From: Psychrobacter maritimus
GTDB taxonomy: Bacteria; Pseudomonadota; Gammaproteobacteria; Pseudomonadales; Moraxellaceae
Assembly: GCF_904846345.1 (NCBI RefSeq)
Contig: NZ_CAJHAJ010000009.1
Span: forward strand, 1-64,000
DNA: 64,000 nt
Direction: 5' to 3'
The notes under the pieces: model-generated
Told to the model about the DNA's origin: nothing
The model's database searches: none
What the model saw: only the letters and a program-made list of their open reading frames with translations
Made by a program: the position numbers and the translations under genes
Part shown: positions 26,524 through 63,381 of the stretch, in pieces
Layout of the letters: each line of letters begins with the position of its first letter
Numbering within the stretch: position 1 is the stretch's first letter

Positions 26524-26565
26524 TAAAAAGCGCGTAAATATGAAAATATTTACGCGCTTTTTTTG
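26524..26565. terminator. Strong symmetric terminator hairpin with GAAA loop
   Basis: A perfect 16-bp stem (26526-26541 with 26546-26561) closes a gaaa tetraloop. The plus side continues in T8; the minus side in T5. It lies ~200 bp beyond the stop of the SDR gene (minus) and could end that transcript, or an unannotated plus-strand transcript. Confidence 0.88.
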
Positions 26566-26620
26566 ATGAAGACATTTTAATATAGTAAGTGCAAAATAAA
26601 ATCGATACGTTAGTATTCTT

Positions 26621-26697
26621 GTGCTAATGGGATAGATTTTTCTTGCTTGCTGTTCGCAGGCGTGACAGAGGCTGCAAAAAACTCACCCCGTTAGCAC
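26621..26697. repeat. Palindromic intergenic element, copy A
   Basis: Ends gtgctaa.../...ttagcac are complementary, and the two halves remain partly complementary to the centre. The inner blocks cttgcttgctgt and agaggctgc are shared in order and spacing with 62195-62274. Noncoding; lies ~65 bp past the stop of the SDR gene. Confidence 0.75.
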
Positions 26698-26763
26698 TTT
26701 GTATCGGTTTTAGATCGGATAAACGACAGCTGTTTAACTTATTATCGTTTATCTGCCGCTATA

Positions 26764-27801
26764 TTAATTAACAATCGCCGCTTTACGGTTAGCCGTTTTT
26801 GCGCGTTTTTTGCCTTTTAATTGACGCGATAGCTTATTGACGTCATTCAATACCTTGCTATAGCGTGCTGGGAATACGCGCTGGACAGCATCTATCATTT
26901 TGGCATCACTGCCAATCAAGCAGCGTGGCTGATTGGTCGCGGCAGCCTGTAAAATAATCCAAGCGGCTGCGCTGGCATCAAATTTTAGAAATTTATTAAA
27001 ACTACTGATGGCTTTGCGGCCGCTACGCATGCCAAGGTCGCTGATACTGTCGTTACCACGGGCGCTATTGGCGATATTGGTTTTGATGCCACCGGGATGA
27101 ATACAGGTCGCTGAAACGCCGCAGCGCTGAATGTCTAGCTCTTGACGCAGACTTTCAGTAAAGCCACGTACGGCAAATTTGCTAGCGTTATAAGCAGACT
27201 GTGACGGCTGCGCGGTCAAACCAAACAAGCTTGAGATGTTAATGATATGACCATGTTCGTTAAAATTACGTGCTTTACTGTCTTTTTTACCACCATCAAT
27301 TTCGCTTTCTTTCACGCTATTTTTAATCAATGGCAAAAATGCCTTGGTGCCGTAAACCACACCCCAAAAGTTGATATCCATGACCCATTCAAGCTCGCTA
27401 ATGCTGCTACCTTCTACGCTTGAATAAAGCGCTACGCCCGCATTATTAAAGATAAAGTTTACTTTACCATGCTCCGCCATCACGCTATCCGCCCACGCTT
27501 CGACGGCTTTATTATCTGAGACATCGAGTACCGTGGTGGTGACTTTGACATCATAGCCGACCAGTAAATCCTTGGTTTGTGCCAATTGCTCAGCATTGAT
27601 ATCTGATAGCGCCACGTGGCAGCCCATTTTTGCTAAATGAATGGCAAGCTCGCGCCCCATGCCAGAGCCAGCACCAGTGATAGCAGCGACATGGTTGCGG
27701 TAATAGGGGGTAATGTCAAGGTCTTGCTGCGAGGAAAAAGGCAGATGTTGGCGTAGTGAGGTTGCGATTGCAGAGACATTTCCAGAAACAGTGTTAAGCA
27801 T
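26764..27801 (-). CDS. Short-chain dehydrogenase/reductase (SDR)
   Basis: 345 residues. Classical SDR motifs: cofactor loop TGAGSGMGRELA (about residues 39-50), NNAG, catalytic Ser in INISSLFG and YNASK (Tyr/Lys). The longer C-terminus includes RCLIGSDAKMIDAVQRVFPARYS and a basic end (KGKKRAKTANRKA), a pattern seen in SDRs that reduce lipid-type substrates; substrate unknown. The N-terminal ~30 residues precede the Rossmann fold. RBS AAGGACTGTTTATC. Lies downstream of clpX but behind its terminator. Confidence 0.85.
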   Translation of the reverse strand: MLNTVSGNVSAIATSLRQHLPFSSQQDLDITPYYRNHVAAITGAGSGMGRELAIHLAKMGCHVALSDINAEQLAQTKDLLVGYDVKVTTTVLDVSDNKAVEAWADSVMAEHGKVNFIFNNAGVALYSSVEGSSISELEWVMDINFWGVVYGTKAFLPLIKNSVKESEIDGGKKDSKARNFNEHGHIINISSLFGLTAQPSQSAYNASKFAVRGFTESLRQELDIQRCGVSATCIHPGGIKTNIANSARGNDSISDLGMRSGRKAISSFNKFLKFDASAAAWIILQAAATNQPRCLIGSDAKMIDAVQRVFPARYSKVLNDVNKLSRQLKGKKRAKTANRKAAIVN

Positions 27802-40406: not shown

Positions 40407-40607
40407 TGGGCAGTCATTACTAGGATGAAGTGCCGTACGTTTGTTATTAAGGCTGAGAGAAAATTAGTTATTTATGCTCTTTAATGCCAATATTTTTTTA
40501 ATAGCAGACGTACGATTATAGTTGGTTGAATTTAAGCTAGTACAAGAAAATCGAGCGCAGAGGTACCTATTGTACTTTAAGCGAGATTGACGCAGTCATA
40601 GCATTAA

Positions 40608-41825
<1,218 letters not shown>

Positions 41826-62100: not shown

Positions 62101-62136
62101 CTAAAAAGCCCATATCTTAGGATATGGGCTTTTTAG
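62101..62136. terminator. Strong symmetric terminator after metY
   Basis: 16-bp perfect stem ctaaaaagcccatatc/gatatgggctttttag around ttag. Works on both strands between convergent metY and the PfkB gene. Confidence 0.92.
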
Positions 62137-62194
62137 TATTAGATGCGAAAGACTTGTAGTTAAACCTTAAATAAAAGCGCGAAACTATTATAAG

Positions 62195-62274
62195 GTGTTA
62201 CTGGTACAAATTTTACTTGCTTGCTGTGCGACTTCGTAACTCCAGAGGCTGCGCAAAATTTATCCCAGCAGCAC
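62195..62274. repeat. Palindromic intergenic element, copy B
   Basis: The left half gtgttactgg...aaatttta and the reverse complement of the right half (gtgctgctgg...aaatttt) match at most positions, so the element can form a long hairpin. It shares the inner blocks cttgcttgctgt and agaggctgc with copy A at 26621. Lies ~90 bp past the PfkB stop (minus strand). Confidence 0.82.
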
Positions 62275-62361
62275 TTTTTTATTAGGGGCAAACTAGAAAT
62301 GCCTTCTAAAGCACTTAGAAACTTAGGTTTTTAGCGCTTTAGTAATCAAACAATCTAACAG

Positions 62362-63381
62362 CTACACAGTTAAAACACGGCGTGAGATATCTTGATACTC
62401 TTGCGATGATAAGCGTGGACCAAACTGCTGAATCACTTGTGCGGCTACTTCGCTGGCAAGTCGTCCGCATTCTGGCAAGCTATAGTGCTGCGATAAAGCA
62501 TATAAAAACGCCCCAGAATAGTTATCACCAGCGCCATTGGTATCGATAACATTGGCAACAGCTGGCGTCGGAATCTCATAAATTTCAATCTCAGACTCAT
62601 CATTTGGCTTATGGGCGATGATGGCACCATTTGGACCATCGGTAACAACCGCCGTTTGGCAATGCTCAAGTAAAGCTCGCGCTGCCGATTTGTGCTGTTT
62701 TTTATCGGTGAATAATTTGGCTTCTTCACTATTACAAAATATCACCGCGACTTTATTGCCGAGCATATTGAGCAAACCTTCTTTGGCAAACTTTACCACC
62801 GCAGGATCAGCAAAGCTGACGGCGATTTTGGCACCATGGATGCCTGCTTGTTGGCGCAGTTGGGTCATTGCGGGCTGAATACCTTCAGACATCGCCAGAT
62901 AACCTTCTAAATATAACCAGCCAGCTTGGGTTAGTGCCTCAAAGTCGACGTTATCCGCGGTAATATCGCTTGAAGTACCAAGGAAGGTTTGCATGGTACG
63001 CTCGCCATCTTCGGTCACTGCCACCACGCACGAACCGGTCACACCGCCTGCATGGATTGACTGAGGGGAAGTGGCAACGCCTGCTTCATGTAAGTCTTTT
63101 AGATAAAATTTGCCTTGTTTATCATCGCCGATGCGGCAGGCATAAAAAGGTTTACCGCCTAAGCTTGCAAAGGTATACATCGCATTGGCCGCTGAGCCGC
63201 CGCCCGCTTGTTTTGATGGCGCAATCTCGGCCAGCTTAAAATACGCCAATAATTGCTGCTGCTCTTCGAGTCCTGCCAGCGTCATATTGCCTTTGGTCAG
63301 GTCAGTTTCTTCTAGCGCTACATCTGACAGCAGATATTCGTGGTCAACCAAGGCATTACCTATCGCCATCACATCGTACAT
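62362..63381 (-). CDS. PfkB-family carbohydrate/adenosine kinase
   Basis: 339 residues of the ribokinase fold. N-terminal GNALVDHEYLL, QAGGSAANAMYTFASLGG (substrate Gly-Gly motif) and C-terminal IDTNGAGDNYSGAFLYAL with the catalytic Asp and anion hole. Overall it resembles bacterial proteins annotated as adenosine kinase, but substrate is not proven. RBS GAGGAGAGAGACATA before the ATG at 63381. rsmI lies upstream on the same strand. Confidence 0.88.
   Translation of the reverse strand: MYDVMAIGNALVDHEYLLSDVALEETDLTKGNMTLAGLEEQQQLLAYFKLAEIAPSKQAGGGSAANAMYTFASLGGKPFYACRIGDDKQGKFYLKDLHEAGVATSPQSIHAGGVTGSCVVAVTEDGERTMQTFLGTSSDITADNVDFEALTQAGWLYLEGYLAMSEGIQPAMTQLRQQAGIHGAKIAVSFADPAVVKFAKEGLLNMLGNKVAVIFCNSEEAKLFTDKKQHKSAARALLEHCQTAVVTDGPNGAIIAHKPNDESEIEIYEIPTPAVANVIDTNGAGDNYSGAFLYALSQHYSLPECGRLASEVAAQVIQQFGPRLSSQEYQDISRRVLTV

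Follow-up and report, generated by a model that had tools for sequence, protein, structure and literature searches.

A probable IS630-type MITE family widespread in Psychrobacter and its possible relation to the Correia elements of Neisseria

The window analysed here is a 64-kb stretch (64,000 nucleotides) of the Psychrobacter maritimus genome. It contains two palindromic blocks on the plus strand, at 62195–62274 and 26621–26697, which carry the core blocks cttgcttgctgt and agaggctgc in the same order. The first lies between convergent genes for a Cys/Met PLP enzyme and a PfkB kinase, and the neighbours of the second encode a cytochrome c and a short-chain dehydrogenase. The sequence-only reading had described a palindrome of about 80 bp with two noncoding copies 35 kb apart, each close to a minus-strand stop. 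The two copies, the order of their inner blocks and their noncoding position were all recovered, and the gap between block and minus-strand stop is 88 bp for the 62 kb copy (stop at 62362) and 67 bp for the 26 kb copy (stop at 26764). The palindrome is also present, but 80 bp is the core only of a unit of 133–155 bp. Just upstream of both copies there are hairpins of nearly perfect pairing, flanked by runs of A and T (62103–62134 and 26525–26564), which look like intrinsic terminators, yet a terminator scan around both copies reported no terminator-like site. A promoter scan of the same surroundings gave one weak promoter-like site, below the shuffle mean.

A BLAST search with positions 62185–62285 against the host genome (3.18 Mb, 28 contigs) returned 47 rows, seven of which were second-arm matches at loci already counted, leaving 40 distinct places including 26621–26700. 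The core is therefore repeated far above chance. When 38 of these places were aligned with their flanks, the similarity was found to extend beyond the 80 bp and in many copies to reach the ends TATAGTCAGTTCAAAATAAAA ... TTTTAAATTGAATCGACTATA. Scanning the host genome for the end pattern with up to three mismatches yielded 73 matches against 11 in a reversed control, and this terminal-repeat route added eight core-bearing copies, so that the host total is at least 48. The proposal of a palindromic multi-copy element is thus borne out. Well-bounded copies are 133–155 bp long and have imperfect terminal inverted repeats (TIRs) of about 28 bp that start with TATAGTC and usually have TA at their edges; of 31 full copies selected, 24 have TA on both sides. 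Being short, bounded by TIRs and devoid of a transposase gene, the element has the make-up of a miniature inverted-repeat transposable element (MITE).

An alignment (A1) and a covariance model (R1) were built from 31 of the at least 48 host copies, picked for recognisable ends, except that both window copies were put in regardless of end quality. R1 matches the 62 kb copy over its full length at 62155–62297 on the plus strand (100.8 bits, the copy itself being part of the training alignment); its TIRs are degraded. The better preserved 26 kb copy spans 148 bp at 26581–26728, also on the plus strand, and scores 124.5 bits, again as a member of the training alignment. Its left TIR (TATAGTAAGTGCAAAATAAAATCGATAC, 26581–26608, plus strand) agrees with the TIR pattern at 26581–26601 with two mismatches, and its right TIR, placed by alignment A1 at 26701–26728 on the minus strand, has altered outermost bases.

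The family is close to being confined to one genus, as the sequence-only reading had guessed. R1 matched 98 of 105 Psychrobacter genomes at E ≤ 1e-3, and in a draw of 299 genomes of the family it matched 97 of the 105 genomes of the same genus and one of the 194 others at E ≤ 1e-4. At most the best 30 candidates per genome were scored in the genus search and the best 10 in the family search, so match numbers are not copy counts. Four plasmid records matched, three from Psychrobacter and one from Acinetobacter variabilis. The latter, plasmid pAV_175-4, carries its copy at L138:1971 to about 2107, in another genus, and two Psychrobacter raelei plasmid records match with the same coverage and identity as this copy.

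Comparison with related genomes shows that both window sites are usually empty. For the 62 kb copy, the corresponding locus was mapped in 23 of 24 relatives, 22 of which lack the element. Only genome G014 carries it at the same place, with 89% identity along the whole element. The site of the 26 kb copy was mapped in 16 relatives (eight of 24 loci were unmappable), and none of them has the element there. At this locus G014 has an independent copy beyond the adjacent hairpin, and G017 has a different element of 108 bp (L130:2293–2400). Inspection by eye of two empty loci (L112 and L113) showed TA at the junction. Since the 62 kb site is occupied in one relative and the 26 kb site in none, the 62 kb copy is the older insertion of the two, which fits its worn ends.

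The setting of 46 copies in the host genome was tallied from open reading frames (ORFs), without the BLAST places C2:416422 and C1:301034 and without partial copies that had been spotted visually. All but one lie outside ORFs of at least 90 aa, the exception overlapping a 282-nt ORF. The remaining copies are distributed over tandem (26), convergent (13) and divergent (6) gaps, and the intergenic DNA of those loci, with the element DNA counted in, is 55% tandem, 14.5% convergent and 30% divergent by length. The under-occupation of divergent gaps suggests that the copies avoid promoters.

The two halves of the palindrome had been expected to form a long hairpin. A hairpin covering the whole element was drawn by hand from the very sequences on which it was tested, which favours the structure, and in A1 80.8% of the cells are paired, compared with 77.0% (S.D. 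0.4) in shuffles and 38–47% with shifted partners. Changes on both sides of a pair occur in 23 pairs against 15.6 in shuffles (1 of 500 shuffles as high) and in 79 cells against 37.0 (0 of 500), and the covariation score is 0.169 against 0.117 (S.D. 0.005; 0 of 500). The weakest measure of covariation, the number of further pair types, is 67 against 61.0, a value that 24 of 500 shuffles reach. Both-sided changes are found in 12 of the 19 pairs of the long middle stem (48–66/107–125) and 5 of the 7 pairs of the next stem, in 5 of 21 pairs of the terminal repeats, and in none of the eight pairs of the tip stem. RNAalifold alone predicts 16 pairs in A1, seven of them with both-sided changes. Compensatory changes support the long stem.

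Folding of single copies gave a divided result. The RNA fold of the whole 26 kb copy is unusually stable (z −3.68, 1 of 200 shuffles as good), as are those of three other window-type copies, L037 (z −5.03), L026 (−3.07) and L016 (−5.52), but that of the whole 62 kb copy does not stand out, 82 of 200 shuffles being as good (z −0.24). The sequence-only reading had been staked on further copies and on covariation supporting the pairing; both were looked for and both were found.

The covariation could be taken to mean that the family is a structured RNA or an element controlling mRNA 3′ ends, with a hairpin under selection and mobile only in the past. This would agree with the compensatory changes in the long stem, with the fold scores of z −3.1 to −5.5 in four of the five window-type copies folded, and with the share of copies in convergent gaps (13 of 46, against 14.5% of the intergenic length). 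However, almost every mapped relative lacks the element at the two window sites, 26 of the 46 copies stand in tandem and six in divergent gaps, and no Rfam family reaches its gathering score in the 64-kb window; a known Rfam RNA was dropped as a candidate on this count. Compensatory change may come from selection on an RNA or DNA hairpin, or from template switching that perfects palindromes, and the latter yields it without any RNA function. We consider an RNA element of this kind unlikely.

A mobile origin of the family is favoured by the presence of insertion sequences (ISs) with the same type of ends. The host genome contains two IS-like units that carry the end pattern, with TATAGT-type ends, at L071:2501–3416 (916 bp) and L045:1615–2521 (907 bp). 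The coding sequence of an IS630-family transposase lies in separate frames in each unit (Pfam HTH_Tnp_IS630 and DDE_3; NCBIfam NF033545), and these are the only two IS630 matches in the genome. The L045 copy looks damaged, its first ORF having 74 aa. Because these two ISs share the end type of the family, the element is very probably a non-autonomous MITE of the IS630 (Tc1/mariner-like) type. As such it is a new family of a known kind, widespread in Psychrobacter.

Across the genus, 93 of 105 Psychrobacter genomes match an IS630 transposase at E ≤ 1e-5. R1 still matches 10 of the 12 that do not, and copies thus survive a detectable partner or exist without one. The 64 Psychrobacter IS630 loci that were fetched represent 53 distinct places (11 repeats). 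With a threshold of 13 of 28 positions, below which nine loci (eight places) fall, clear inverted TATAG-type ends delimit units of 889–979 bp at 55 of the 64 loci and 45 of the 53 places. The MITE ends are thus common to autonomous IS630-family ISs of the same genome and the same genus, and in one recurrent IS end all 21 bases agree with the MITE end pattern.

Both ends of single copies were scored over 58 positions, ungapped, against 21 IS end pairs picked by hand to represent the subgroups. The best match of copy L037 is the IS630 at L344 (48 of 58, with 15 of 18 inner positions), followed by others at 46, 46 and 44. The 26 kb copy also fits this IS best, at 43 of 58 positions and 17 of 18 inner ones, and other Psychrobacter subgroups follow at 42. 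The ends of the 62 kb copy, at 33 of 58 with the best IS, are too worn for a clear assignment.

Nearly all IS630 ends in the set start with TATAGT, and the end match is therefore partly generic. If it were wholly so, or convergent, the true partner would be another Tc1/mariner-type enzyme, and the near-equal scores of several IS630 subgroups with L037 point that way. The fit of one IS end to the pattern without a mismatch over 21 bases, and the inner matches of L037 and the 26 kb copy with L344, go beyond a generic start, and we hold this alternative to be quite improbable.

Under the IS630-type MITE interpretation, a resident IS630-family transposase would act in trans by recognising the shared terminal repeats. 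It would cut the unit out, or copy it, and place it into another TA site, presumably with duplication of that single TA. Inserted copies last mostly between genes, tending toward convergent ends and away from divergent promoters. Where transcribed, they might form the long hairpin and so invite RNase III cutting or alter the life of the neighbouring mRNA, as has been described for the Correia (NEMIS) elements of Neisseria.

That the family is instead a REP/BIME family moved by a Y1 (IS200/IS605-like) REP-associated transposase, as its many palindromic, intergenic copies and a Y1_Tnp gene near a host IS630 (L071:4331–4834, Pfam E 1.8e-6) might suggest, is highly improbable and was rejected, since the copies are complete units, bounded by terminal repeats and mostly by TA, their ends match those of IS630 ISs, and the 5 kb around this Y1 gene, the one examined, contain no full-length strong R1 match. 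Four weak R1 matches are present there, the best with E 0.013 over 74 bp and adjoining an IS630 end. REPs are not known to be units with IS-like terminal repeats. The likeness to REP/BIME repeats with a RAYT lies in the palindromic intergenic repeat; unlike these, the family shows no link to the Y1 gene examined. Of the two affiliations offered by the sequence-only reading, REP-like or MITE-like, the second is the one that agrees with the copy number, the TIRs with TA edges, the empty sites, the covariation, the restriction to one genus and the IS630 ends. The Y1 gene itself (L363) is surrounded by an 18-bp inverted repeat.

Other small elements were noticed in the host genome. Next to the L045 IS630 copy lies a 146-bp element (L045:2636–2781) that has a different core and inner ends similar to the subterminal sequence of IS630; it is possibly a MITE born by internal deletion. 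Three units of 76–77 bp (L028:2851–2926, L053:2638–2714 and L068:2446–2521) consist of little beyond two terminal repeats.

MITEs are treated in PMC10969869 and PMC6382973, and three described systems resemble the present one. According to the available text of PMC2229807, RUP of Streptococcus pneumoniae is a MITE with IS630-family-like ends and a TA target that is paired with IS630-Spn1. It has another host, and the likeness is drawn from its published description. MITEAba12, in Acinetobacter (Moraxellaceae), is a MITE from the same bacterial family that has been paired with ISs by end similarity, but it is 111–114 bp long, has 16-bp ends (GGCTTTGTTGCACAAA) unlike those of the window family, and its ISs make 9-bp duplications (PMC6382973, available text). 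The third system, the Correia elements (CREE or NEMIS), shares with the window family TA-bounded TATAGT ends, a length of about 100–157 bp, many intergenic copies, a hairpin and the lack of a transposase gene. Compared with CREE ends (TATAGTGGATTAA...), the end consensus of the window family agrees at 22 of 28 positions on the right and 15 of 28 on the left. The cores differ. The score of copy L037 against CREE is reached by 954 of 3000 shuffles, and its score against the Correia-type core found in Psychrobacter by 2047 of 3000. Homology of the window core to the Correia core was rejected on the former comparison; the end type alone is common to both.

The 108-bp element of G017 at the 26 kb locus (L130:2293–2400) has a core that resembles the Correia core of Neisseria. 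At E ≤ 1e-3 this element has matches in 60 of 105 Psychrobacter genomes and none in the host genome. Among 20 top-match copies fetched (including L139–L158), 148 of 190 pairs are identical at 105 or more of 108 positions, and 141 of these 148 have unrelated left flanks. Copies extracted from Neisseria carry the published Correia repeat, exactly at one end and mostly with one base off at the other (CCAGTACGG for CCGGTACGG). A 107-bp Neisseria copy is identical to the Psychrobacter form at 77 of 109 aligned positions, and the cores alone score 25, compared with 15.5 for the best of 10,000 shuffles. A 22-base pattern designed from sequences of both genera was searched in 84,980 species genomes and found in at least 120 stretches, with 103 from Neisseria and 17 from Psychrobacter among the matches listed. 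The Psychrobacter elements thus have a length of 104–108 bp, a Correia core and TA-bounded ends. Their ends agree with those of CREE at 14 of 28 (left) and 15 of 28 (right) positions, and the 26-bp Correia repeat itself is absent, for which reason we call them Correia-type and not CREE. As judged from these sequence comparisons, their kinship with the Correia elements is well supported.

First described in 1988 (PMC10969869, PMC2229807; available text), Correia elements are given in the accessible literature as numbering about 120–250 copies per genome in N. gonorrhoeae and N. meningitidis and as carrying promoters and RNase III sites. The accessible part of PMC2649163 stated in 2009 that the mechanism mobilizing CREE had not been determined, and that of PMC2229807 names RUP and IS630-Spn1 as the only known case of IS-end similarity among such repeats. 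We found no link of Correia elements to IS630 or to Psychrobacter in the literature searched, mostly open papers; Buisine et al. (2002) may discuss a Tc1/mariner relation. The available portions of PMC9330008 and PMC2581405 contain the relevant words and no Correia-IS630 link, and a literature search with CREE core oligonucleotides found no paper.

IS630 elements are present in Neisseria as well. With the Psychrobacter transposases as queries, three of seven Correia-bearing Neisseria genomes gave matches. In the N. elongata unit (L309:1433–2337, 905 bp), IS630 domains are encoded in two overlapping frames; its protein is 34% identical to that of the host over 163 residues. This protein matched 20 of 46 Neisseria genomes, some of them many times (28 matches in G311), and found no IS630 in the other 26. 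These 26 include four Correia-bearing genomes, N. bergeri, N. sicca, N. dentiae and N. polysaccharea, that had no match with either query, which speaks against IS630 as the Correia partner. Inverted ends scoring 22 or more of 30 were recognised at ten of 20 Neisseria IS630 loci fetched. A Correia element of N. viridiae contains a truncated IS630 copy (L310:1092–1941).

One group of these ISs, the 905-bp subgroup A, occurs in five Neisseria genomes (L309, L313–L316 and L318) and has the ends TATAGT..ATTAAAA...AGTACAA and ...AGGACA; one copy has GGTAC and another an altered base in ATTAAAA. At the corresponding inner positions, the two CREE ends read AGTACGG and AGGACAA. When both ends are counted, the best scores of the 107-bp CREE among the 21 end pairs are 43, 43 and 41 of 58, with three subgroup-A ISs, and the next is 35. 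A 105-bp CREE variant with ACAAAAAC ends and a shorter repeat, scored ungapped, does not discriminate, its six best ISs all reaching 31–32 of 58. The Psychrobacter Correia-type element L139 comes closest to L333, an IS of the Psychrobacter 890-bp group, with 44 of 58 positions and 16 of 18 inner ones; its scores with other Psychrobacter ISs are 43, 41 and 40. For the consensus form the best score is 43, followed by 41 and 40. End polarity relative to the ISs is a tie or differs by one position for the 107-bp CREE, and is inconsistent between two Psychrobacter Correia-type sequences. By these end scores, the Correia-type element of each genus is most like a local IS, and the resemblance looks clear for the 107-bp CREE and modest for Psychrobacter. 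The subgroup-A IS630 of Neisseria is thereby a candidate for the Correia transposase.

Simple descent of Correia-type elements together with one IS lineage was rejected, because the subgroup-A ISs are 35–36% identical in the catalytic region to the 890-bp ISs of Psychrobacter, while Neisseria subgroup C is 72–76% identical to that group. The IS630 tree carries a long-branch warning.

A published suggestion is that Correia elements are moved by IS1106, of the IS5 family, and not by IS630. It was made from the similarity of Correia sequence to the N-terminus of the IS1106 transposase gene (available text of PMC3898611), and would accord with the four of seven Correia-bearing Neisseria genomes that lack an IS630 match with either query. 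The 107-bp CREE ends, however, best fit subgroup A in the set of 21 IS630 end pairs; AGTAC and AGGAC stand at the same inner places in both, and TA ends suit IS630. Mobilization by IS1106 is in our estimate rather unlikely.

We regard as an evenly balanced proposition that CREE, the Psychrobacter Correia-type elements and the window family form one assemblage of IS630/Tc1-mariner MITEs. Correia-type elements of the two distant genera would share their core, and their ends would be fitted to local IS630 elements, those of subgroup A in Neisseria and the 890-bp group in Psychrobacter. On this view CREE would be moved by the Neisseria IS630, which some Correia-rich genomes would have lost since then. 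The wider value of the window family lies in this bridge from a Psychrobacter MITE to the Correia elements. With a Neisseria IS that has matching ends, and a second genus in which the same core goes with another IS lineage, Correia mobilization becomes directly testable.

The window holds one further element of this general form, a probable TIR-bounded unit of 106 bp at 40517–40622 (strand undefined) with Correia-like ends and a full-length hairpin. Its RNA fold has z −5.75 on the plus strand and −2.75 on the minus strand, and R1 matches it weakly on the two strands (E 4.3 and 5). The similarity of its core to the Psychrobacter Correia-type core is reached by 44 of 5000 shuffles and that to CREE by 134 of 5000, and it is a possible relict of the Correia-type family.
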